Shown here: piece by piece, positions 30,729 through 45,793 of the stretch
Numbering within the stretch: the first letter of the stretch is position 1
Layout: each line of letters starts with the position of its first letter
NCBI RefSeq assembly: GCF_009741925.1
Contig: NZ_WPCC01000002.1
Location: forward strand, 124,001-188,000
DNA: 64,000 nucleotides
Direction of reading: 5' to 3'
Source of the DNA: Natronomonas sp. CBA1123
GTDB taxonomy: Archaea > Halobacteriota > Halobacteria > Halobacteriales > Haloarculaceae
Made by a program: the position numbers and the translations under genes
The notes under the pieces: model-generated
Told to the model about the DNA's origin: nothing
The model's input: the letters and a program-made list of their open reading frames with translations, nothing else
Database searches by the model: none

Positions 30729-30770
30729 TTAACCAACAATTCTATGTATATAGCGAGGTATGTTGGTTAA
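30729..30770. repeat. 42-bp inverted repeat element, copy 1
   Basis: TTAACCAACA (30729-30738), 22 unrelated bases, TGTTGGTTAA (30761-30770). Arms are perfect. The right arm ends 16 bases before the start of the small gene at 30787, and the central spacer of this copy is AT-rich. See copies at 35714, 37142 and 41315. Confidence 0.85.
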
Positions 30771-30786
30771 CACGAGGCGACTGCTG

Positions 30787-31107
30787 ATGTCCTACGAACC
30801 ACCGACCCCACCCGCGGAGCTCCCGACAGACCTCGTCGACACGCTCAACGGATACTCCCCAGACCAACTCCAGCACGTCGCCCACTACGCGGAGACATTG
30901 GCTGAACACAAGGAACGTGAGACGCGCCTCGAGGAGGAGTCAGACGACTCCGAGGTCAAAGCGCGACCTGACGACTTGCCGGATGAAGTGCCCACAAAGG
31001 CGACGATCACGATCAAAGAAATCAACGACAATCGCTACTACTACTGGCAGTGGCGGGATGGCGACAAAATCCGGTCAAAATACAAAGGACCCGTCAGCCC
31101 CGATTAG
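30787..31107 (+). CDS. Small haloarchaeal protein (DUF6788-like)
   Basis: 106 residues. The N-terminal half is helical (LPTDLVDTLNGYSPDQLQHVAHYAETLAEHKERE). After an acidic linker, the C-terminal half has a compact aromatic beta hairpin (ATITIKEINDNRYYYWQWRDGDKIRSKYKGPV), which resembles the DUF6788 pattern seen in many archaea and on plasmids. The role is unknown. Start ATG 30787. The inverted repeat copy 1 lies directly upstream and may control it. Confidence 0.65.
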   Translation: MSYEPPTPPAELPTDLVDTLNGYSPDQLQHVAHYAETLAEHKERETRLEEESDDSEVKARPDDLPDEVPTKATITIKEINDNRYYYWQWRDGDKIRSKYKGPVSPD

Positions 31108-31125
31108 AATGCCATTTCTTCGGAA

Positions 31126-32184
31126 TTAGACGTTTTCAAACCGCTCAACAATCGAGACAGCCCGTTCAAGTGCCTCACCGACCACGGGACTCCGATTGTC
31201 GACGAACAACGCTTCGTCCTGCCAGTGTTTTCCGGATTTATTCTCCCAGACGCCGTAGAGCGTCAGTTTCGGCAACTGAAGGACGCCGAATTGGACCGCG
31301 AGAATGTACAGCAGCGTCGTCACTCCCCGCCACGGGACTGTCGTTTTTCGAGGTAAGTCGACCGGGAAGGTGACGTGTTGGGCCCGAAGACCGACGTCCT
31401 GAGCGTTGTCGATGAACGCATAGTCGTTGCTAAAGAGCAACACTCGCTTTCGATTACCCTGATCGTACTCGCGATAGGCCTGAATAATCGCTGCGTCGCC
31501 TTTCTCAACGTCGCCGTCTTCTCCGGGAACAAGGTCTGTTCGCCGGCGTGAGGCCAACCGGCGAAACTCATACAGTCCCAAGAATCCCTCACGGTTGCTC
31601 CCTGCAGGTTGGTTCTGTAACCGAGTAAACTCCTCGCCGAAGGCCGCTGTCAAATCCGCCGTATCGTAGTGGTTGTAGTACCAATCGAGTTCTTTCTTAA
31701 CGCCTTTCGAGAGTGCATATCCCATCGTCGGCCGTCGATTGGCCCCATCGCGAGACCCTGAAACCGGATCGATATCGAGTGCCTCGGTGAGTCGAAATCC
31801 CATCAGATTCGTATCGAGCCCAATCATCACCGGATCGTGGCCCGCCTCAAGATCCGGGTAGCCATGCTGCTGTACAAACTCAGCAATCGCATCAGCGTTT
31901 TCCGGGGACACCAACCCACTGCCAACGAAAGCGCGGACGTAGCTGTTCGCGTCAGGCAAGTCATTGTACGCTCTTGGACCGTATTCGAGTTCGATTGTTT
32001 CCCGAGCATCCCGATAGGTCACAGCGCCTTTTGTGAAACGGACAGTGGCTTGCCCTGCAGCTTCGAGCTCAATGCGGAGCAGTTCGCCGATGTCGTCGCA
32101 GGGATGTTTGACCGGAATCGAGGACACACCGCTGTCATAGAGCGCGTTGAGAAGAGTGACGAGGTGGTCACGCTGGATGTACAT
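31126..32184 (-). CDS. PIN-domain-like nuclease partnered with a CARF protein
   Basis: A 352-residue protein. From about residue 115 it has PIN-fold features: MIGLDTNLMGFRL (first acid in DTN), a helical KKELDWYYNHYDTADL with a second acid, GDAAIIQAYREYD (third) and LLFSNDYAFIDNAQ (S-N-D). The N-terminal ~110 residues and the C-terminal ~90 are unassigned. The ATG overlaps the CARF gene stop by one base (TAATG), so the two are translationally coupled. A toxin-type RNase controlled by a cyclic-oligonucleotide-sensing partner is the inference. The PIN assignment is by motif reading only. Confidence 0.5.
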   Translation of the reverse strand: MYIQRDHLVTLLNALYDSGVSSIPVKHPCDDIGELLRIELEAAGQATVRFTKGAVTYRDARETIELEYGPRAYNDLPDANSYVRAFVGSGLVSPENADAIAEFVQQHGYPDLEAGHDPVMIGLDTNLMGFRLTEALDIDPVSGSRDGANRRPTMGYALSKGVKKELDWYYNHYDTADLTAAFGEEFTRLQNQPAGSNREGFLGLYEFRRLASRRRTDLVPGEDGDVEKGDAAIIQAYREYDQGNRKRVLLFSNDYAFIDNAQDVGLRAQHVTFPVDLPRKTTVPWRGVTTLLYILAVQFGVLQLPKLTLYGVWENKSGKHWQDEALFVDNRSPVVGEALERAVSIVERFENV

Positions 32185-32648
32185 TAGACCACCTCCGTGA
32201 AATCGACGAGGTCAACGTTCGTTCGCGGGATGTCCGGATAGCACCGGCCGTACGCCGTCGACTGAAGGTGGAGGTAAAAGACGTGATCGGCGCCGTGCTT
32301 GAGGCCCGCTTGGAACGCGATTGCCGACATGAATTTCCGACCCGGCGTGATATCTATCGCAACGGTGTCGTCGGTCGTGCCGGTCGCAATGCTGTCGACG
32401 AAAAACGAGGCGATAGCTCCGTAGTCGGTTTCAGCCTCTAGCCGGTGCGTATCGACAGTAGCTGTTGTGTCGTAGGTCGCGACGACGTCCTCGAGCAGCG
32501 AGACCAACGTCGGCGTTACATGATCAAGACCAGGATTCGTGAGTAGATGGATTTCATCCGGCACGAAGTGGTCGTCGCAGGCTGCAAGCAACGGGTTGAC
32601 GACCGCCTCGGTCGTGGGACTTGCAATTGTGAGCCAAATCGTCGCCAT
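32184..32648 (-). CDS. Stand-alone CARF-like domain protein
   Basis: 154 residues with a Rossmann-like CARF layout: the first strand and loop IWLTIASPTTEAVVNPLL, a mid-strand EIHLLTNPG, and the hallmark second motif VAIDITPGRKFMSAIAFQAGLKHGADHVFYLHL. CARF domains bind cyclic oligoadenylates made by type III CRISPR complexes, and stand-alone versions can be ring nucleases. No cas gene is visible in the window. It is cotranscribed with the PIN-like gene and the repeat array starts 67 bases upstream of its ATG (32648). Confidence 0.5.
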   Translation of the reverse strand: MATIWLTIASPTTEAVVNPLLAACDDHFVPDEIHLLTNPGLDHVTPTLVSLLEDVVATYDTTATVDTHRLEAETDYGAIASFFVDSIATGTTDDTVAIDITPGRKFMSAIAFQAGLKHGADHVFYLHLQSTAYGRCYPDIPRTNVDLVDFTEVV

Positions 32649-32714
32649 TCTCTCTGTTGACGCCGCGATAGTATGTGAATCTTCGGCGAATTCGAGACAC
32701 TGGACTAGTTGAGA

Positions 32715-32989
32715 ACACATCGATAGAGGGGTGTGTCCAAGCCAACTACCGAGGACGAACACATCGATAGAGGGGTGTCCCGACCCAACGACCAATCTCC
32801 AGTTGAACAGCCACCAATCGATGTTCCCTGAAACCCTGATTTCGAGACATACGGAGTGTTTTGAGGGAATTTACATATCGATAGAGGGGTGTTTCGGTGA
32901 CCCTTGAGGTGATTTGGAAATCGCAGATTTTCACTCAACAACCGTGTGTCACGATAACAGCCAAACTGTACACATCGATAGAGGGGTGT
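32715..32989 (+). repeat. Four irregularly spaced copies of a 20-bp repeat
   Basis: ACACATCGATAGAGGGGTGT occurs at 32715-32734, 32759-32778, 32970-32989 and with one change at 32873-32892. All are in the same direction. Start-to-start spacings are 44, 114 and 97 bases. Each unit has ACAC/GTGT ends and an ATCGAT palindrome. The uneven spacing argues against an ordinary CRISPR array. The units could be iterons or ORB-like sites for a replication initiator, or operators of the CARF-PIN operon. Confidence 0.75.
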
Positions 32990-33070
32990 GCCGAAACAAA
33001 ACCGCGACAATGGAGACGGTCCGTTTGATATCCTCTCACGCCTGAGCGGGGGGCTTCCGCTCGCTACGTG

Positions 33071-33267
33071 TCAGGTTTCGTTGCGGATCTGTGCGTTGAC
33101 GACTGACTCAACTTCAGATGAGGCAACCATGTCGATTCTAGAGTCTTCACGAAGCGTTTCGAGAATCGTCTCTGGACGCTCACCGAATTGGAACTCAAGA
33201 GACGTCCCTGAACCGGGACCGTGGCTCCGACGTTCGAAATTCACCAGCGAGTACCTAGTCAGCTCTG
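33071..33267 (-). pseudogene. Remnant, possibly the C-terminus of an Orc1/Cdc6-type protein
   Basis: Without a start codon, the minus strand encodes about 65 residues (RYSLVNFERRSHGPGSGTS, LEFQFGERPETILETLRED, SRIDMVASSEVE) ending in a stop. The beta-wing followed by a PETILETLRED helix reminds me of the C-terminal winged helix of haloarchaeal Orc proteins. It differs from the intact Orc1 in this window. If correct, a second initiator gene stood here, next to the four-copy repeat array. Confidence 0.35.
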
Positions 33268-33277
33268 TTTCTCATTC

Positions 33278-33540
33278 ACACCAGATTTCCGGTGAACGAT
33301 CCATAGTCAATTCTTAGATTATCGCTCCAAAATCTCTACGCGAAAATTGCCATAATTCGACCGCGGACACCAGTTGTTCGGTAAAATACATCGCAGCAAA
33401 CACGAAGGGGAGACACCACGTTTCCGGTGTAAGTTATCTTGAATAGAGCTAGCAATGCTGTTTACGGGTTTGTGTGTGAATCTATTCCAATTCTACCGTA
33501 AAGTGAGGTGAGATCCATACACACCGGGTTTCCGGTGAAA
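33278..33540. repeat. Origin recognition box cluster beyond the 3' end of orc1
   Basis: Three ORB-type boxes in reverse orientation: ACACCAGATTTCCGGTGAA (33278-33296), ACACCACGTTTCCGGTGT (about 33413-33430) and ACACCGGGTTTCCGGTGAAA (33521-33540). A degenerate one is at about 33366-33384. The intervening sequence is AT-rich. They match the boxes on the other side of the gene and extend the Orc1-binding region to both flanks. No gene lies between 33,268 and 33,644. Confidence 0.75.
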
Positions 33541-33644
33541 ATGAAGCCAGTGTTACAACTGGAGATTGTATCAAAAAGGAAGTACCGCAGACACTGGCCT
33601 AGCAAGACAAAAGTTGTAGGATGAAGCCAACAGTCGAGACCTAT

Positions 33645-34850
33645 TCACTCAGAATCAAGGCTTCCCGAGAGGACACTCTGGATGACTTCCGGGTCTTCAA
33701 GGAGTTGATGTTCAGTGTAGCTACCTTCAGCACTACCACCGGAGCATCGAGATTGCTCGGTAACATCCAAGAACGCGTGTTCTTTCAGGAGGTCACGAAC
33801 CCGACGCAACGAAAGTCCCTCGGAGCCCTCCTGTCGGCAAATTTGCTCATATAAATCGTAGATAGCAGTTGTTCTGAATCCCTCTTTTTCGGGCGAATTA
33901 AGCGAGAGGATTGTCAATGCTTGTAGTACGTATCGTGAGTGGGGTGTCGAACCTCGAATGAGTTCACGGAACCGATCGGTTTCTGCCTGGTCACGGGCCC
34001 GGTCGACGAACTCCTCACGGACGACTTCTGCCTCCTCGGATTGTGCGATCTCGCCGGCGTATCGGAGGATGTCAATTGCCTTGCGTGCATCCCCGTGTTC
34101 GCGAGCGGCCAGTGCTGCAGTGCGAGAAATCACGCTCTCGTCTAGAACACCGTCACGGAAGGCATCTCGTCGTGCTTCCATGATATCATTCAGTTGTCCG
34201 GCATCGTATGGTGGGAAGACGAACTCACGCTCACAGAGACTACTTTTAACACGCTCGTCCATTCGGTCTTTGTACCGAATCTTGTTGCTGATCCCAATCA
34301 CGCCGATCTTACAACTCTCGATTTTCCCCGCTTCTCCCGCTCGTGAGAGCTGCATCAGGATGCTGTCGTCCTCGAGTTTGTCGATTTCATCAAGGATAAT
34401 TAACGCAACGTCGTGCTGCTCATCCAGAATTTTCCAGAGCCGCTTGTAGTACGTCGCGGTACTGATTCCCTTATCTGGGATGTTAACGCCAGTCGTGTCA
34501 GGGTCATTGAGTTTGCTAGCGATGGTTTGAACAGCTTGTGTTTCAGTTGTATCTTGTGCACAGTCAACGTAGGCAGTCTTCGCGTTAACGTTCTCCTCGG
34601 CAGCAGTTTCGACAAGTCGTGTTGATACGTATTTCGCACACAAAGATTTCCCAGTTCCCGTCTTACCGTAAATGAGAACGTTGCTCGGACTCTGGCCAAA
34701 GATAGCCGGATTCACTGCATTCGCAAGTTTACTAATCTCGTCGTCCCGCCCAACGATGCGTCCCTCATCCGGGAGGTGGTTAATTTCTAAGAGTTCCTTG
34801 TTCACAAAGATCGGATCTTCCCGGGTGAATAGTTCGTCAGACTGAGACAT
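33645..34850 (-). CDS. orc1: Orc1/Cdc6 replication initiator
   Basis: A 401-residue AAA+ initiator. Walker A GKTGTGKS (62-69), Walker B IILDEIDKL (Asp154-Glu155), sensor 1 IGISNKIRYKDRM, the arginine-containing box in RVKSSLCEREFVFPPYD, sensor 2 GDARKAIDILRYAGEIA, then a C-terminal winged helix. It binds ORB elements as an ATPase and loads the MCM helicase. The start is ATG 34850, eight bases from the nearest ORB, so initiator binding there likely also represses its own promoter. Longer in-frame starts would run through the ORBs. It defines this segment as a replicon with its own origin. Confidence 0.92.
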   Translation of the reverse strand: MSQSDELFTREDPIFVNKELLEINHLPDEGRIVGRDDEISKLANAVNPAIFGQSPSNVLIYGKTGTGKSLCAKYVSTRLVETAAEENVNAKTAYVDCAQDTTETQAVQTIASKLNDPDTTGVNIPDKGISTATYYKRLWKILDEQHDVALIILDEIDKLEDDSILMQLSRAGEAGKIESCKIGVIGISNKIRYKDRMDERVKSSLCEREFVFPPYDAGQLNDIMEARRDAFRDGVLDESVISRTAALAAREHGDARKAIDILRYAGEIAQSEEAEVVREEFVDRARDQAETDRFRELIRGSTPHSRYVLQALTILSLNSPEKEGFRTTAIYDLYEQICRQEGSEGLSLRRVRDLLKEHAFLDVTEQSRCSGGSAEGSYTEHQLLEDPEVIQSVLSGSLDSE

Positions 34851-34857
34851 ACTCGTT

Positions 34858-35577
34858 GACACCGAGTTTCCGGTGAAACGACTTGAAGCTTCCCCCGAGA
34901 CACACACACCGGGTTTCCGGTGAAACCCGAATTATGAGTGTATCTACTCCAGATGAAAGAGGGGTATCGAGGTATCGGAAAGACGGTTAGAATCGCAACT
35001 CAGTACCAAACAGAGCATGTTACGGCCTGTTCAATGGACGGAGTCCATCCATTGGCTTGGCAGATCCCAGCTGAAGAGGTTTCCAGGACTCGTGTTAGGA
35101 CAGAAACTGTAGAACCAGAGAAAGCAGACGAATGCGAATGTTCACGCCCGCAAGTAGCAAGAGTCGGTTAGATCAACTGAAGCTGGAAGACGACAGCTGT
35201 CGTCTTCATTCTTTGCTGACGATGAAGTCAGTGGTCGGTACTCAGGTAATAGTAATAAAACTATGTCAGACGTACATCTAGGAAAGAACAGTTATACAAT
35301 CGCTACCACAGCGATATACTGCAGGCACAGCGTCTTTTGATAGGCATTTCACCGGAAACGTGGTGTGTGTGTGTGTCGGAGTCGATTCTTAGGACGTCTC
35401 AAACTATCATCTTGACCCAACGGGCTTCTTGACTCGATACACCGGAAACGTGGTGTGTCCCTTGGGCCACCAAATCGGCGTGACTCTATTAGCCACGGTG
35501 CATAAAACTGCCAATACTGTTGGTTCATCATGAGTTACAGAGTTGGCTCCGGGTATTTCACCGGAAACCCGGTGTCC
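34858..35577. other. Replication origin with inverted ORBs around an AT-rich core
   Basis: Two boxes point one way next to orc1 (34858-34878, 34905-34925), and three point the opposite way at the far side (TTTCACCGGAAACGTGGTGTGT at 35347-35368, 35439-35459, 35556-35577). Between them, 34,930-35,340 contains AT-rich stretches (about 35,245-35,330) suitable for unwinding. The first far box is followed by a short GT repeat. Inverted ORBs facing an AT-rich core beside cdc6 is the standard haloarchaeal oriC plan. No credible gene lies between 34,851 and 35,851. Confidence 0.85.
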
Positions 35578-35713
35578 TTTCGTAGGGGCTTCGGGTACGA
35601 CAATGATTTCTCGCCATACCCGTGTCTGCTCTTCTTCGTGGAAATACTCACTAATACGATACGATTCGATCACTATTCACCCCGCCAGACAATTCGAACG
35701 AACGCCACATTCA

Positions 35714-35755
35714 TTAACCAACAAAATTGTTCACTGCGTCTGTTATGTTGGTTAA
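35714..35755. repeat. 42-bp inverted repeat element, copy 2
   Basis: TTAACCAACA (35714-35723) and TGTTGGTTAA (35746-35755), 22 bases between. It lies between the origin boxes and the 3' end of the Fic gene, with no start codon nearby, so a purely promoter role does not explain this copy. Confidence 0.85.
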
Positions 35756-35851
35756 CCACCACCGACAAAGCTGAATCAAAATTCAATCTAATCTCAACTC
35801 TCATTCTCCGACAGAGCAGGCAGAACGTCTCAGGACTGCCACCGAGGTAGT

Positions 35852-36997
35852 TTACTCGAGAATATTGAACACGTCAACGGCTTTGTACTCTTTTCCGCGT
35901 TCTTTCCCGGTCACTTCCTCGATGAGGCCATCCGATTCGAGATTGTCGACGACCTTGTAGGCAGTCCGACGAGAGACGTCGAGATACTCCACGAGATCCG
36001 GTGCCGTAAAATACGGATACTGGAGTAACTGGCGTGCAAACTGATCCGTTTTCGTGTTGCCCGGATACTCCTTCTCGTAGCGCTCCTGGAGTTCACGGAG
36101 CTGGTGGGTTCGGTCGTACGATGTTTCCGCTTGACTTCGGAGCCCTTCGAGGAAAAATTGGAACCATTCGTTCCACGCACCCTCGTCACTGACCGCCCGC
36201 ATTCGTTCAACGTATTCGACTTTGTGCCGGTTGAAGTACGCGCTCGGGTAGATGTACGGACTCTCGAGATACCCTTGGCTCGTCAAATAGAGAATAATGA
36301 GGAGGCGGCCAAGTCGACCGTTCCCGTCCGAGAACGGATGGACTGTCTCGAAAAAGTAGTGGATAATTGCAGCATCCACGAGTGGATGATACTGTCCGCC
36401 CATCCGGACGTATCCCTCAAGAGACTGCATCAGTGCGTCGAGCGCTTCCGGCGGTGGGGGAACGAACGGGCGTTCTCCCGACTGGGGACTTGTTAGATGA
36501 ACCATGTGGTCCCGGAAGTCCCCGACAACGTCTCCGTCGTTTCGGACGTCTTCAAGCAGCATCGAGTGAAGGCGTTTGATGAGCGAGAGCGTTATTTCAT
36601 CTCCACTCTTGACTTTCTCGAGCCCGTGGGTAAGCGCGTTTTCGTAGTTGAGTGCCTCTTTCAGGTCTTTTTCGACTGTCGGGTCTGTTTCAACCGTGGG
36701 ATTCTGGGTGTGATATGCTTCAACGTCTTGGTATACAACATCTGCCCCTTCGATACGTGCGGATTCGACAGCCTCAATCCGAATAAGTGAAGTATAGAGT
36801 ACTGTTGAGAAATCAACGGTTGAACTGATGCCGTCGACACGACCGATCTGATGTGCGGCATCAGTTACGAGAGCGTGTGTCTGATCGGTGATTTCAAGCT
36901 TTGGCTCTATAGGGAGCGTCTCAGGCGAATAGTAGGGATTTGGGTGATAGGAGACGTATGTCCCTGGCGCGCGATCGGGAAGCTCTTTCGGGGACAT
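35852..36997 (-). CDS. Fic-family protein (AMPylase-like) with C-terminal winged helix
   Basis: A 381-residue Fic protein. The catalytic motif HPFSDGNGRLGR (220-231) is complete, so transfer of AMP (or another nucleotide group) to a target protein is expected. The inhibitory helix motif S-x-x-x-E-G is present at Ser79-Glu83-Gly84, making it a self-inhibited (class II) form. The C-terminus (PYFTAPDLVEYLDVSRRTAYKVVDNLESDGLIEE) is a winged helix, so it may bind DNA. It lies beside the origin. Fic proteins of this layout are frequent on mobile elements, but the target is unknown. Confidence 0.9.
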   Translation of the reverse strand: MSPKELPDRAPGTYVSYHPNPYYSPETLPIEPKLEITDQTHALVTDAAHQIGRVDGISSTVDFSTVLYTSLIRIEAVESARIEGADVVYQDVEAYHTQNPTVETDPTVEKDLKEALNYENALTHGLEKVKSGDEITLSLIKRLHSMLLEDVRNDGDVVGDFRDHMVHLTSPQSGERPFVPPPPEALDALMQSLEGYVRMGGQYHPLVDAAIIHYFFETVHPFSDGNGRLGRLLIILYLTSQGYLESPYIYPSAYFNRHKVEYVERMRAVSDEGAWNEWFQFFLEGLRSQAETSYDRTHQLRELQERYEKEYPGNTKTDQFARQLLQYPYFTAPDLVEYLDVSRRTAYKVVDNLESDGLIEEVTGKERGKEYKAVDVFNILE

Positions 36998-37274
36998 CTC
37001 GGTAGTAACACAATCTATCTCTGTTGATATAGGTGTTTTTATAGCCAGTATACGGACTGACTGTTTCCTAGTCTGTTGTTCTAATCAAGGACGGAGTGGT
37101 ATACGTGCAATCTTCAGTACGCGCCTTCATGAGAACCGCGATTAACCAACAATACTTCTCCAAATGTCTCCTATGTTGGTTAATTATTCTTCATGTTCGC
37201 GAACGCCGACAGCTCCGGCACCCGTGTCTCCGCGAGTTCTCGACGGGTGAATACCTCACCGAGCGGCTCCCAAA
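36998..37274. other. Intergenic between Fic and a small gene, with inverted repeat copy 3
   Basis: The Fic promoter side is AT-rich (about 37,020-37,070). A 29-residue frame (ATG 37193 to TGA 37282) starts 10 bases after the inverted repeat and overlaps the next gene's start as ATGAATGA. It could be a leader peptide or a micro-protein. Confidence 0.35.
37142..37183. repeat. 42-bp inverted repeat element, copy 3
   Basis: TTAACCAACA (37142-37151) and TGTTGGTTAA (37174-37183) with 22 bases between. As with copy 1, a short open frame begins within 20 bases of the right arm. Confidence 0.85.
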
Positions 37275-37502
37275 ATGAATGATTGGGTCCGAGGATGGAA
37301 GGACGAGTTCGACGTCGAATCACCGAATCAACTTCGCGGGACGATCGCTGATCAGGGACTCGATGTCACCGAAAAGGATCGTCGCCGAGAGATTGCGCGT
37401 GAGTGGGAACCGGTCCAGCGGCGAATCGAAATTGTGGGTTTTGCCATCCGAGAGTGGGACTTTCTAGCCCCAGCGACCAAACGTGGTGAGGTTCGGAGGT
37501 GA
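37275..37502 (+). CDS. Small basic/acidic helical protein, unknown
   Basis: 75 residues (MNDWVRGWKDEFDVESPNQLRGTIADQG ... EWDFLAPATKRGEVRR), mostly helical and highly charged, with several Trp. It is preceded by the 29-residue frame and inverted repeat copy 3. It has the size of an antitoxin or DNA-binding accessory protein, but I recognise no family and no toxin gene is adjacent. Confidence 0.4.
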   Translation: MNDWVRGWKDEFDVESPNQLRGTIADQGLDVTEKDRRREIAREWEPVQRRIEIVGFAIREWDFLAPATKRGEVRR

Positions 37503-37602
37503 CACATCTCGTTCTTCGCACGTCCGTTGCTGGCAGATGAATACTTAGGTCGGTCCCGGTACATATATAAGGTTTTTATAGTAGTGGTCCGTGATACGGC
37601 AT

Positions 37603-38298
37603 ATGGACCGTGAGACGAATAGTACGAATTCGTCTGGGACAGCTATTTCTCTTTCAATACCGCCTTCAGATCCGGATTTATTCAAACACAAGGCGACGAG
37701 TGACGTCCTTCTATTTTTAACAAATCACCGATTCAGTGACTTCTCACTGCGAGAACTCGCGACACAGATTGGTCACTCACACCAGTCCGTCCGACGGGCA
37801 GTAAACGTTCTCAGCGCTAACGACCTGGTCATCGAATCGCCTGAAAGCAACCAGCGACTCGTCCAGATCAACAGACAACGCCTGTCTATCCCGGACGATC
37901 CGATCCTTCGCATTCCTCAGCCAGAGTATCACCAACCGGTCAAAGCTGCGGTCACGGAACTTCGTGAGAACATCATCGATGTGGTCGGCATCATTCTCTA
38001 TGGGAGTGTGGCTCGGGGCGAGGCTGACCGGCGGAGCGATATCGATCTCTGGGTGCTAACCCGGTCTGGGCGGGCGGAAAGCCAACGAGAAGCGAACGCC
38101 ATTGCCCGTGATCTCGAAGACACGGAGTTCGATGGTGACCGATACGCCTACGATATCGATGTCGAGGCCGTCCAGGCGATTCCGACGTACACCGAAGACA
38201 TCCGGGAGATCGTCGTTTCGGGGATTCCGGTCTACAAGACGAGTGACTTCGAAACCGTCGAGAACCTCCTCTTGGAGGAAGGAGTCACTGATGAGTAA
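37603..38298 (+). CDS. MNT nucleotidyltransferase antitoxin with N-terminal winged helix
   Basis: A 231-residue protein. Residues ~30-80 form a winged helix (SDVLLFLTNHRFSDFSLRELATQIGHSHQSVRRAVNVL). The minimal nucleotidyltransferase core follows, with GSVARGEADRRSDIDLWVL carrying the G-S and D-x-D metal ligands, and a third acid in YDIDVEA. MNT antitoxins silence their HEPN partner by adding AMP to a tyrosine. The HEPN gene overlaps the 3' end by eight bases. A TATA-like stretch (about 37,563-37,579) lies upstream of ATG 37603. The DNA-binding domain suggests autoregulation. Confidence 0.88.
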   Translation: MDRETNSTNSSGTAISLSIPPSDPDLFKHKATSDVLLFLTNHRFSDFSLRELATQIGHSHQSVRRAVNVLSANDLVIESPESNQRLVQINRQRLSIPDDPILRIPQPEYHQPVKAAVTELRENIIDVVGIILYGSVARGEADRRSDIDLWVLTRSGRAESQREANAIARDLEDTEFDGDRYAYDIDVEAVQAIPTYTEDIREIVVSGIPVYKTSDFETVENLLLEEGVTDE

Positions 38299-38800
38299 CG
38301 GCTCGGACCCGACCGCTGTGCTCGCAGCACTCGACCGCGCACAGGATGCTTTCGAGATGGTCGGACACGGTCAGACAGCGTTCGAGGACGGGATTAGTGC
38401 TGACGAAGACTGGAAGACACAGCTGACGAAAGCGTGCCGCCTCCTCGAGGTCGTTGACACGCTCCAGTCACAGGACGGGTACTACACGGCCGTCATCGAG
38501 ATCTGTTTCGGCGCAATTGAACGGTCAATCGAGGCGTACGCACTTGCGATGACGAACGATACGCTTCAGGACTTTCAGGACCATCAGTTCAGCTACGAGC
38601 GTGCCCACCAAATCGGGCTGTTTGAGCGGGAGACTGCAGAGGCGATGAAGGACCTCTACAGCGAGAACCGGACAGAGAGTTATTACGGCGGCGGGCGTCC
38701 AACCGAAGAGCAGGCGGAAGCAATGACCGACCTCGCCAGCGCTGTCCATCAGTTCGCAGTAAGCCAGATCCGGGAAGGCGGCGTCTGTCTGTGTGACTGA
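38291..38800 (+). CDS. HEPN-domain toxin of the MNT/HEPN pair
   Basis: A 169-residue all-helical HEPN protein. The expected active-site region lies in LYSENRTESYYGGG, with Arg followed by two Tyr. The common R-x4-6-H histidine is not obvious, while the tyrosine that MNT proteins modify in related systems is. The N-terminal helix bundle (CRLLEVVDTLQSQDGYYTAVIEICFGAIERSIEAYAL) is complete, unlike the fragment at 30441. It is probably an RNase toxin, coupled to the MNT gene by an 8-base overlap. Confidence 0.82.
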   Translation: MSNGSDPTAVLAALDRAQDAFEMVGHGQTAFEDGISADEDWKTQLTKACRLLEVVDTLQSQDGYYTAVIEICFGAIERSIEAYALAMTNDTLQDFQDHQFSYERAHQIGLFERETAEAMKDLYSENRTESYYGGGRPTEEQAEAMTDLASAVHQFAVSQIREGGVCLCD

Positions 38801-38973
38801 CTACGTTTCAACACTTCAGGTGTGCACTATGGACCGGAAACCCCGACGAAACTCACGCCATATTGTCAGCCATCCAATTCCACCGAATTACGGAACTTCC
38901 CGGCTGATATCGGACAAGGAACGTCGGAAACGTGGGGTTGGATCGAAACGACGGAAATCTGAGGTGAGGTCCA

Positions 38974-41142
38974 CTACGACAATTCGTTCGAGGCTCCGAA
39001 CGAGCTCAAAACGGCGTCCCTCTCACCGGAGAGCTCTCGACGAATGTCGGACCGGTCCCACCCGAGCGGTGAAAGCACGCTCTCGACCGCTCTGACCAGC
39101 TGCCTCTCGTAGTAGGAGGCGTCGTAGGTCTCGATCGCTTCGTGGGCGAGGGCGACCCGGTCTCGCGAGGATTTCTCGTCGTCGACGACCACATACTCGA
39201 TATCCTGGCCCGGGTGGACTGCCAGGTCCTGCTCGCGGGCTCGCTTCAAGGCGGCCACATTCTGGGTATTCTGTGAGTAGCCCTCCAGCGGTTTGGAGAC
39301 ACGATTCCGCTCGACGAGCCGTTCTACTGCTACGTTGCCCGCCTGCAGTTCATCGATTGCTCGTTCGAGCCGTCCGATCACCGCGTCCGGTGACCGCGTG
39401 GCATCGAGCTGGTCGAGACAGTCCCGCTGGACGTCCTCGATGAACGGCGGGGTCGAACGCTGTCGGGCTTCAATACCTCTGATCTTGAAGTCGTCGTCGC
39501 CGGCGACCTTCCCGAAATACTTCGTCAACGCGCCGGCGTCGCTCTCGCGCTGCGGGACGAACGCCACCCAGTCGTAGTGGGCCTCGTGTTCGAGCCGAAT
39601 CTCGACGCGTTCCGTGACCTCCGTCGCGAGTGCCTCGAGTTCTTCACGGTCATCGTTGTCGATGTCAGGGTCCGGGGTCACCCAGATTGAGTCGACGATG
39701 CCGTGGACGACGCGCCAGCCGCCAGCTTCCAGCCGCTGTTTCGCCGCCAGCAGAATCTCACGGGCGAACGCGTTAATCGCCTCGTGGCACTCGATGCGGC
39801 CAAACTTCGCGTTGCTGAACCCCTGATAGCCGAAGCAGGCGACGAGGATCCATTTTAGCGCTCCCGACCGTCCCTCGAGTTCCGCGAGTCGGTCCTCATT
39901 GGGGTCGTCCCGCTCATGCTCGCGACGGATGGCCGCCTTGATCTCGTCGCGAGCGTCGATGATCGGCTGGAGCACGTCGACGAGGTAGCCCCGGTCGTCG
40001 CAGATCGAGTATCCGAGGCCGGGGACGTCGTCGCGGTCGCTGTGGCAGTCACACCGGATGACGTCCGGTGAGACGTTCCGGGTACAGATGATGTTCGGGT
40101 ACAACGAGGAGAAATCGAGTTCGTGGACGTTCTCGTGGAGACCGACCTCGGGAGCGAAGATGAAGCCGCCACGGTCGGCGTCGTGGAGCGTCCCCATCGG
40201 CTTGTAGAACTCGTGGCGCCAGGAGGTCCACGGGACGAGGACGCCGCGGCCGTGGGCCTCGCAGATCTGGATGGCGGTGAGCACGTTCCCGATCGACGCC
40301 CACGCAAGCTCCTGGACGGGCTTTTTCGAGCGCGACACGAGGTCGAGGACGCCGTCGAGGTTCGTCTCCCCGTAGAAGAACGTGTTCGACTTGTCGATGA
40401 TCGCCCGGCCGGGCACGTTGTAACGTGCCGGCGAGTGACCGACGCGACCGTAGCTCGAGTACGTCGACCGGCTCGCGAGCTGCTGATAGTCGATGTCCGG
40501 CCACCGACTCAGTGAGAAGTCGTCGACGCCGGCGTCAGTTGCCATTTCGTGGAGGGTCGGGACGATTTCGCTCGTCGAACAGACCAGGACGTCCGGATCG
40601 TGTGTGTCGATCGCCCCTTGGACGGCCGACAGAATGTCCGGAGGCGAGCCAGTGACGGTGTTGCCGGCGACGGACAGCTCTCCATAGGTGTCGTTACTCG
40701 TTTCGGTCACCGGGACGCTGAGCCGGAGCGTCGACAGCTCGCTCGCCGGCGTCGGATTGACGCCGGTCTCCAGACAGTACCGGAACTCTCGCGAGAAGTC
40801 GACGTTGAAACAGGCGAGATCCCCGACTGGATACTCCGACAGCTGGCGTGCCTGCCGGGCGAGTGGGGTGACGCGGTCGATGTGGGCGACGTCGACGGCG
40901 AGGACTGGTTCCTCGTCCCGTCGAAAGCCCGGCCGTCGCGCAACCATTTCGGTCGTGACGACGTCCGGGTGCTGATCGTACACCGACTGGAGTGTCGTGA
41001 GGTCGAGGTCGGTCTCTGGGTCGCGAGCGGCGACGTAGAAGCGCGGTGTGTAGTTATCGCGTTCTGTTGCGACGGCGCCGCCGGCGGTTGCTTCCCACTC
41101 TAGAATGCGGCCATCATCGAAAAAATCAACCGTGAATGGCAT
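38974..41142 (-). CDS. Family B DNA polymerase, divergent, without recognisable proofreading motifs
   Basis: A 722-residue polymerase. Motif A is ELDFSSLYPNII (Asp343), motif B ALKWILVACFGYQGFSNAKFG, motif C VHGIVDSIWV, where the usual DTDS reads IVDS. The second Asp, which is the catalytic one in family B, is kept. In the N-terminal ~300 residues the exonuclease motifs DxE and NxxxF/YD are not seen at their expected places. Haloarchaeal plasmids and viruses often carry such second PolB proteins. Location next to the origin suggests replication or translesion work for this replicon. Confidence 0.88.
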   Translation of the reverse strand: MPFTVDFFDDGRILEWEATAGGAVATERDNYTPRFYVAARDPETDLDLTTLQSVYDQHPDVVTTEMVARRPGFRRDEEPVLAVDVAHIDRVTPLARQARQLSEYPVGDLACFNVDFSREFRYCLETGVNPTPASELSTLRLSVPVTETSNDTYGELSVAGNTVTGSPPDILSAVQGAIDTHDPDVLVCSTSEIVPTLHEMATDAGVDDFSLSRWPDIDYQQLASRSTYSSYGRVGHSPARYNVPGRAIIDKSNTFFYGETNLDGVLDLVSRSKKPVQELAWASIGNVLTAIQICEAHGRGVLVPWTSWRHEFYKPMGTLHDADRGGFIFAPEVGLHENVHELDFSSLYPNIICTRNVSPDVIRCDCHSDRDDVPGLGYSICDDRGYLVDVLQPIIDARDEIKAAIRREHERDDPNEDRLAELEGRSGALKWILVACFGYQGFSNAKFGRIECHEAINAFAREILLAAKQRLEAGGWRVVHGIVDSIWVTPDPDIDNDDREELEALATEVTERVEIRLEHEAHYDWVAFVPQRESDAGALTKYFGKVAGDDDFKIRGIEARQRSTPPFIEDVQRDCLDQLDATRSPDAVIGRLERAIDELQAGNVAVERLVERNRVSKPLEGYSQNTQNVAALKRAREQDLAVHPGQDIEYVVVDDEKSSRDRVALAHEAIETYDASYYERQLVRAVESVLSPLGWDRSDIRRELSGERDAVLSSFGASNELS

Positions 41143-41314
41143 TTGATAATCATTCCCTCCTATACCCTACAGAACAGCCGAATGTCCGATAAGCTACGGC
41201 GTGTCGTTTCCGCGTTTCTGGAAACGAGTCGAGGACACGGACGATGGCGTCTTCTCTTCTATTGTTCGTGTTCCCCCTTCCTTCCGGAATGATTTCCGTA
41301 GTTCGTCACTTGCG

Positions 41315-41356
41315 TTAACCAACAAGCCCAGAGTGATCGGCCCAGATGTTGGTTAA
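41315..41356. repeat. 42-bp inverted repeat element, copy 4
   Basis: TTAACCAACA (41315-41324) and TGTTGGTTAA (41347-41356). The 22-base spacer of this copy is GC-rich, unlike the AT-rich one of copy 1, so only the arms and their distance are conserved. It marks the right end of the replication block. Confidence 0.85.
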
Positions 41357-44533: not shown

Positions 44534-44700
44534 GTGAACTACCCTACCCTACTCGCTCACAGCTTGCGCGGTTCGCTCGTTGAGGGTAGGGCTTCCTGCT
44601 TCCACGACGCGCTTTGCAGATACTGACGTATCCACAGGGAGCGCAGTCTCCACAGGCGTTGATTCGGAGTGTCCCACTCCTACGTCTTCGAGGCCGCGAG
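44534..44700 (-). ncRNA. Predicted omega (reRNA) guide RNA at the tnpB 3' end
   Basis: The 3' part of tnpB and the following bases contain complementary CCCTACCC (about 44580-44592) and GGGTAGGGTAG (44537-44550 region) segments that can fold into a hairpin, ending in GTAGTTCAC at about 44534. In TnpB systems the guide RNA overlaps the 3' end of the gene and runs a short way into flanking DNA. Here the guide would read from 44533 downward (AAAGCCATCTACAAG). The exact 5' end is not visible. Confidence 0.45.
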
Positions 44701-45793
44701 AAAGAATGTTCCACGCCGCGTTCGCGTCCCTGTCTGCCTCAAACCCGCAGGCGGGACAGGAATGTTCGCGGACCCACAACGGCTTCTCCGTCGAAGTCCC
44801 ACAGGCCGCACACTCCTTGGTCGTCCCTCTCGGGTTGACCGCCACGAAGTGCGTCCCCTCCCGCTCGCACTTGTACTCAAGTAGTGAGAGGAACGTTCGC
44901 CATGCCGCTGACGCCGTGTTGCGGCTGTTCGACGTCGATTCGAGCATCCCCTTCACGTTCAGGTCTTCGACCGCCACGAGGTCGTACTCCCGAGCGTAGT
45001 AGTTCGAGAGCTTGTGCAAGAAGTCGCGCCGCTTCCGTCGGAGGTTGGCGTGACACTCTGCGACCCGCCGCCGTTGCTTCTCGTAGTTGTTCGACCCGTG
45101 CTGTTTCCGCGAGAGGGACCGCTGTTCACGTTCCAGCCGCTCCCGTTCGGCGGAGAGGTCGAGCGACCCGACGGCGTGACCGTCCGTATCGTGAGCGTAC
45201 TTGAGAATCCCCACGTCGATTCCGACGCACCGCTCGGGATTCTCGGGCGGTTCGGGCGGGTCACGGTCCAGTTCGATGCCGAACGTGGCGAACCACTCGC
45301 CCGTCGGTTCCTTCTTGACCGTGACCTGTTTCACGGTGTCGTCGTCGGGGATGGCGCGGTGAAGCCGAATTGGTATGTCCGCGAGTTTCGAGAGTGACAG
45401 GACAGTCTGACCGCCCTTCTTGTCGAGCTTGAAGCCACACTGGCTGTACGTGAAACTTCGGAACTCCCGTGGCGGCTTCCACTTGAGGTGACCGACGCCG
45501 TAGCCGTTATTCTTGAGTTCCCCGAGGGACTTGACGTTCTGCTCAATTCGCATGACAGTCGTTTGTAGGACTGTCGAGTACACGTCGGAGAGGCCATCCC
45601 ACCAGTCTTTGAGACTGGGAAGTTCGTCTCGGATGGACCGAACACGCTGATTGAGCGTGCCTGCGTCCTCGGGGATTTGGTTGAAGCGGTAGAGCGCGTG
45701 ATTGTAGAGTTGCCTACAAATGTCTCGGTGGCGGTCCAACTCCTCTCGGTGGGCATCGGACGGCTTGAGACGGTACTTGTAGGCGTAGTACAC
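44549..45793 (-). CDS. tnpB: TnpB RNA-guided nuclease (IS200/IS605 group, IS1341 type)
   Basis: A 414-residue TnpB. The split RuvC nuclease is complete: Asp193 in GIDVGILKYA, Glu276 in VAVEDLNVKGM and Asp354 in EADRDANAAW. The zinc ribbon CAACGTSTE ... CPACG (Cys 328, 331, 346, 349) lies between. No TnpA transposase is adjacent, so it is an IS1341-type stand-alone unit that cuts DNA guided by its omega RNA. Translation begins at GTG 45793, two bases after a small upstream gene. The hairpin at its 3' end is annotated separately. Confidence 0.9.
   Translation of the reverse strand: MYYAYKYRLKPSDAHREELDRHRDICRQLYNHALYRFNQIPEDAGTLNQRVRSIRDELPSLKDWWDGLSDVYSTVLQTTVMRIEQNVKSLGELKNNGYGVGHLKWKPPREFRSFTYSQCGFKLDKKGGQTVLSLSKLADIPIRLHRAIPDDDTVKQVTVKKEPTGEWFATFGIELDRDPPEPPENPERCVGIDVGILKYAHDTDGHAVGSLDLSAERERLEREQRSLSRKQHGSNNYEKQRRRVAECHANLRRKRRDFLHKLSNYYAREYDLVAVEDLNVKGMLESTSNSRNTASAAWRTFLSLLEYKCEREGTHFVAVNPRGTTKECAACGTSTEKPLWVREHSCPACGFEADRDANAAWNILSRGLEDVGVGHSESTPVETALPVDTSVSAKRVVEAGSPTLNERTAQAVSE

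Follow-up and report, generated by a model that had tools for sequence, protein, structure and literature searches.

Palindromic sites at the locus

The window, that is, the whole stretch of 64,000 nucleotides analysed here, carries four exact copies of a 42-base palindrome composed of two 10-bp arms (TTAACCAACA and TGTTGGTTAA) and a 22-bp centre (Table 1); none was found in 100 shuffles. A sequence-only reading of this DNA had already reported the four copies, whose coordinates we confirmed, and had seen no copy elsewhere in the window. Indeed, no further arm pair was found with gaps of 10–34 bases, and tolerating one mismatch in each arm gave none either over the range of gaps scanned. Sites 1 and 2 flank p106, orc1 and the origin-like repeats. 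We take these repeats to be a probable plasmid origin and presume that they are origin-recognition boxes; the Fic-like label is likewise our presumption, from a motif recognised by eye. A TnpB-like gene, also recognised by eye, lies at 44549–45793.

Table 1. Sites and neighbouring features in the window
Feature	Position	Strand	Remarks
Site 1	30729..30770	no strand	16 bp before the p106 start
p106 gene	30787..31107	+	106 aa; proposed binder of the sites; start at 30787 likely
Orc1/Cdc6 replication initiator gene	33645..34907	-	53% identity to annotated orc1/cdc6 of pJ7-1; start codon uncertain
Three origin-recognition-box-like repeats (CACCGGAAAC...)	35346..35577	no strand	read from sequence; upstream of orc1
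Site 2	35714..35755	no strand	beyond the origin-like repeats
Fic-like gene	35852..36997	-	sole gene between sites 2 and 3; read from translation
Site 3	37142..37183	no strand	
Family B DNA polymerase (PolB) gene	38974..41142	-	
Site 4	41315..41356	no strand	172 bp before the PolB start (41142)

Copies 1 and 3, and not 2 and 4, had been placed just before small open frames. This holds for copy 1, whereas copy 4 proved to lie upstream of the PolB gene. A further correction to that reading is that the set continues past the window: seven sites with up to three mismatches are present on the contig that includes it (C13, 207,538 bp) and ten sites with the 9-base core in the genome.

Distribution and anatomy of the sites

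The pattern TTAACCAAC-N(9-28)-GTTGGTTAA was matched in 202/292 Halobacteria genomes, with up to 32 sites per genome, and its reversed control in 1/292. Among public genome contigs at least 118 stretches contain a site at the single gap scanned (22 bases), and the titles of the matches listed are haloarchaeal apart from an uncultured archaeon and a MAG with a Bacteroidales label. In IMG/VR 53 stretches contain a site, one of these, a contig 55,145 bases long, corresponding to Halobacterium virus ChaoS9; with the limited patterns scanned, viral contigs mostly have sites and no detected p106. The sites are a nearly identical set dispersed over haloarchaeal plasmids and viruses. The sequence-only reading had asked whether such hits gather on orc1-bearing replicons and near a conserved gene, and both the linkage to orc1 and one conserved neighbour, p106, were found (see below). 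Its idea that the element marks a plasmid backbone is consistent with this linkage and with the occurrence on plasmids and viruses. In a 55-kb plasmid record (NZ_CP119995.1, locus L219) genes recur every ∼16.35 kb with one site per unit; the record seems to be a small relaxase plasmid repeated in tandem. Full-text literature searches with the 10-base arms, or with the 9-base arms and 'halo', returned no haloarchaeal title among the matches listed, and no title or abstract opening listed in further literature searches describes the element, which is unreported as far as these searches reach.

The arms are nearly invariant across sites. The census gives 473 arms with the window record included and 438 paired arms with it excluded. 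An exact partner is missing for 28 exact arms, but 24 of these have a one-mismatch partner 14–25 bases off, and outward-facing pairs were not seen. The gap of exactly 22 bases that had been described holds in the window and is not the rule elsewhere: among IMG/VR pairs (pattern gaps 10–34) it is 20–23 in 53/57 and 11–13, one helical turn less, in 4/57, while gap counts from the genome-contig loci are biased by the scan at gap 22. Selection, which had been postulated for arms and spacing alike, can be upheld for the arms; the spacing is flexible, yet still constrained, mostly to 20–23 and less often to 11–13 bases, so that the lack of any spacing constraint, which would have told against the earlier proposal, was not observed. 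As had been noticed in the window, the centres differ: they are unrelated across sites (152 mutually dissimilar among 230), show no self-complementarity outside the arms, and their halves pair no better than shuffles. This anatomy suits a two-headed protein on one DNA face, not a hairpin, and the helical phase of the gaps fits the earlier suggestion of such binding. At L113:4778-4866 two sites are separated by just 5 bp.

Position of sites relative to genes

Gene calls, here and in the unmatched and gap-matched comparisons below, came from a simple codon scorer. Only 13/236 sites lie inside predicted genes, though coding sequence makes up 76% of bases, and 6 of these 13 are 23-bp-gap matches in viral genes that may be due to chance. 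Site density per kb is 0.75 in codirectional, 0.88 in convergent and 0.69 in divergent gaps. On the stop side 80/214 distances fall between –10 and +20 bp; on the start side 27/203 are under 50 bp, 13 of these at 10–20 bp. For the p106 family the site is on the start side in 13/13 adjacencies. Between the site and the 5' end of SWIM-family genes (for example at L137:3788) there is a GC-rich, hairpin-like stretch (GCCTCCGCCCCTCGGCGGGCGC) that is strongly conserved.

The p106 protein and its site

A site is found 9–20 bp upstream of the start in 25/30 p106 copies. The remaining five comprise one with the near arm and centre, one with a one-mismatch site, one with a single arm at a contig edge and two with none; a Halobacterium salinarum copy keeps near arm and centre and lacks the far arm. 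Like Orc1, p106 is present in 11/13 site-bearing replicon stretches. Across the 292 genomes, 155 hold both at least one site and a strong p106 match (E<1e-28), 47 a site only, 1 the protein only and 89 neither (phi 0.70). The 47 genomes without strong p106 (of the 202 with sites) mostly have few sites each, and in the sole protein-only genome, G114, a site with a one-base deletion can be seen by eye before p106. When at least four sites are required, phi is 0.85 for p106, 0.57 for ArdC and 0.25 for PolB. Since p106 carries its own site, this co-occurrence is partly built in. More telling is the inference from many sites to the protein: a p106 relative at E<=1e-8 is present in each of the 122 genomes that have at least six sites.

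The protein has no match in Pfam, nor any below E 0.1 in PHROGs and NCBIfam; the name DUF6788 was dropped for want of a Pfam match. A structural model (pLDDT 75) predicts two helices followed by an acidic, disordered stretch; a three-stranded sheet (strands at 73–79, 82–91 and 94–103) lies in the most conserved portion. Fold searches with the model gave weak tied rows only (best Z 3.9), with no DNA-binding fold supported. In the arm-binding domain of Lambda and Tn916 integrases a three-stranded sheet reads about 10 bp; these domains are absent among the fold matches listed for the model.

Matched protein-site pairs

Upstream of distant p106 relatives (30 loci) we found the core site itself, unchanged or with a single mismatch, in 7, a symmetric variant CTAACCAAC..GTTGGTTAG in 2, a further variant in 1, a site with one damaged arm in 2, and another palindrome built to the same geometry, GTTACCCCAC..GTGGGGTAAC, in 3. 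No palindrome was seen in 14 of the 30, of which 5 are partial matches. In 1 of the 30 loci (L231, genome G121) two direct, not inverted, arms precede the gene. Paralogs of p106 with a C-terminus like YYYYQWREGDEIRSETVQR have no palindrome seen upstream (L235, L236, L238-L243, L250), and at L226, L227, L228 and L244 the C-terminal domain of p106 occurs in other frames or longer proteins adjoining orc1.

The palindrome GTTACCCCAC..GTGGGGTAAC (type 2), sought blind, is itself dispersed, in 30/292 genomes with up to 12 copies (control 0). At E<=1e-20 the type-2 protein was detected in 27 genomes, and 22 of them also have the type-2 palindrome (Fisher 6e-22). Among 42 protein copies, the better-scoring of the matches listed, the type-1 protein has a type-1 site before its start in 21/22 and the type-2 protein a type-2 site in 18/20, with crossed pairings in 0/42. 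Virus phiCh1 provides a third pair: three copies of TTATCAAAC[AG]-N24-TGTTTGATAA, which lie before the p106 homologue, before ParA and behind the replication gene, respectively; two slightly altered copies occur in phiH1. Judged from sequence, we hold with high confidence that protein subfamily and arm sequence form a matched pair. Because subfamily and palindrome pair so cleanly, with a third pair in phiCh1, it is very probable that a family of autoregulated proteins recognises the arms.

Linkage to replication and partition genes

An orc1 gene lies within 2.3 kb of p106 in 18/20 type-1 windows (two of these being orc fragments) and in 14/20 type-2 windows; by comparison, across seven replicon stretches about 10% of positions are that close to orc1. 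For parA the corresponding numbers are 1/20 and 0/20. It lies within 2.3 kb of p106 in seven loci, three of them viruses, and several replicons encode it elsewhere. On their own replicon the sites lean weakly towards p106 (combined z –3.2; single-replicon p 0.017–0.57), several of the replicon stretches having been picked for holding sites.

The explanation that fits best as a whole, and which we regard as reasonably probable, is that p106 is a small autoregulated DNA-binding protein and the palindromes are its recognition sites. A p106 dimer would grip one arm with each C-terminal three-stranded sheet, the disordered acidic linker would let it bridge two or three helical turns, and occupancy of site 1 would repress p106. 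With less assurance, the dispersed intergenic sites may be centromere-like or replicon-organising elements tied to the Orc1 replication module, p106 acting like centromere binders of the SegB/ParB type. SegB offers a parallel to an autoregulated binder that has dispersed sites and is encoded next to an initiator or ParA gene, and this linkage to orc1, and sometimes to parA, leads us to favour segregation or replicon organisation; by analogy it is the likeliest main role, with chances that we put a little below even. Since parA is not beside p106 in most windows, a partition role rests on analogy.

Alternative explanations

It might be supposed that the sites control replication, p106 at and away from the Orc1 origin coupling or titrating initiation and so setting copy number or incompatibility. 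The proximity of orc1 (18/20 and 14/20 windows), the enclosure of p106, orc1 and the origin-like repeats by sites 1 and 2, and the slight clustering of sites near p106 speak for this; most sites, however, are distant from any origin, and the p106 relatives of phiH1 and phiCh1 sit in regions without an orc match, so that we consider such control unlikely. It is less likely again that the sites serve a replicon-wide transcription repressor as operators. Ahead of p106 and its relatives the site is positioned as an operator would be, but few sites come close to a start (27/203 within 50 bp, of which 13 in the 10–20 bp range of p106), 80/214 adjoin stop codons, and convergent gaps are as rich in sites as divergent ones. 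General promoter operators in the manner of a KorB-like global set were dropped, as the sites are not at promoters of many genes. Among the candidates named in the sequence-only reading, partition-like and recombination sites survive, whereas a plain regulator site fits worst, because the sites mostly avoid gene starts, one gene family excepted. If the sites were termini of an insertion element or formed an RNA hairpin (a terminator, for instance), the inverted arms and the frequent location at gene 3' ends would be explained. Yet 152/230 centres are mutually dissimilar while the arms hardly vary, only the arms are self-complementary, and two gap classes stand in helical phase, which makes this the least credible reading by far. 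As the centres are unrelated, the arms are not termini of one insertion element, a possibility that the sequence-only reading had itself raised against its proposal; the lack of a conserved interior speaks against insertion sequence or MITE ends, and centre halves that pair no better than shuffles speak against a hairpin or integron attC.

Recombination at the sites deserves a longer discussion, although we find it doubtful. An enzyme would join or invert DNA at the arms, making modules exchangeable, with p106 as accessory factor or repressor, which is compatible with p106 as the binder. The p106-orc1 module has sites at its bounds in the window, pJ7-1 and CP101165, and the PolB group is together in pJ7-1 and CP101165 and split in C13 and G024:C7. 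Megablast plasmid matches (best 40 of 171 records, some near-duplicates) start at 30729 in 10 and at 30761 in 5. At module ends the site is retained and the partner varies: 35/63 recurrent end types have at least two partner types across the site, though part of this count comes from diverged homologues that failed to cluster. Of 3910 interior alignment ends 603 lie no more than 60 bp from a site, where a uniform spread would give 85.5; there are peaks at the inner end of the near arm (70) and at the outer edge of the far arm (106) that arise partly because the conserved arms themselves stop alignments. In close pairs with an unrelated far side the centre is kept in 36 (7 clusters), replaced in 25 (5) and intermediate in 30 (12), but some kept-centre pairs are diverged copies of one junction. 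Inversion 2 between phiH1 and phiCh1, noted in PMC6210493, maps to two phiCh1-type sites beside the tyrosine recombinase Int2; the inverted segment includes the p106-side site itself, one breakpoint being within ∼70 bp of it and the other within a ∼430-bp gap starting at the second site. Against this stands the gap-matched control, in which gaps with a site do not show clearly more rearrangement: with family weighting, conservation for site versus control is 0.39 versus 0.33, 0.71 versus 0.57 and 0.83 versus 0.78, and lower only at 50–75% identity (0.06 versus 0.24). The idea of a rearrangement hotspot, which came from an unmatched comparison, failed here. Where a site is present in only one member of a pair of homologous gaps, 2/135 pairs retain the neighbour, which is thus nearly always different. 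A tyrosine recombinase borne in common by the plasmids was also dropped, none being shared by the 13 replicon stretches, some of them partial (pJ7-type integrase in 4/13, Int2 in 0/13), and the variable gaps are ill-suited to a fixed synaptic site.

Comparison with known systems

Large mosaic plasmids abound in haloarchaeal genomes; their sorting and the points at which they recombine are, as far as is known, still largely to be worked out. An element present in 202/292 genomes, with a probable binder and two further pairs, makes both questions directly testable, and its copies on Halobacterium salinarum plasmids and in viruses ChaoS9, phiH1 and phiCh1 add to this. We also entertain, as a rather speculative proposal, that haloarchaeal plasmids and viruses have in common a hitherto unrecognised system in which small orthogonal DNA-binding proteins of one family, each with its own scattered palindrome, mark the replicon for segregation and at the same time set the joints of module exchange and inversion. 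If this is true, viruses and small plasmids with sites only would exploit the protein of a resident plasmid. The matched palindromes could become orthogonal DNA tags for haloarchaeal genetics.

Integron attC and tyrosine-recombinase sites have inverted outer boxes, a variable middle and modules between sites. The window element shares these traits; it differs from attC in that its centres do not fold, its arm pair is symmetric and a shared integrase was not found in the 13 replicon stretches. KorB of RK2 and SopB of phage N15 are ParB-fold proteins of plasmid ParABS systems with dispersed sites. They and the putative binder p106 have in common one autoregulated protein and many scattered palindromes per replicon, but a family search found no sequence relation of p106 to them. 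A site at the putative binder's own promoter, as expected of partition-type systems, is found in 21/22 and 18/20 copies.

The SegAB system of Sulfolobales, described in PMC12284271, is chromosomal; SegB is a ribbon-helix-helix protein, in those systems always found with segA, and its 13-bp motif lies mostly within genes. For both SegB, as described there, and the predicted binder p106, sites lie directly before the protein's own gene or operon, and others are dispersed across the replicon and enriched close to the locus. In contrast to SegB in that account, p106 is predicted to consist of helices and a three-stranded sheet, its sites are intergenic and bipartite, with 10-bp arms ∼32 bp apart, and it is usually beside orc1, not parA. 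The excerpted text of PMC6210493 makes no mention of palindromes at Inversion 2 of phiH1/phiCh1, whose inverted segment contains a p106 relative and ParA and maps to phiCh1-type palindromes. The sites may serve segregation, replication control or recombination. Within the reach of the literature searches, the analysis adds a previously unreported, real and widespread element together with its probable cognate protein and two further probable protein-site pairs.
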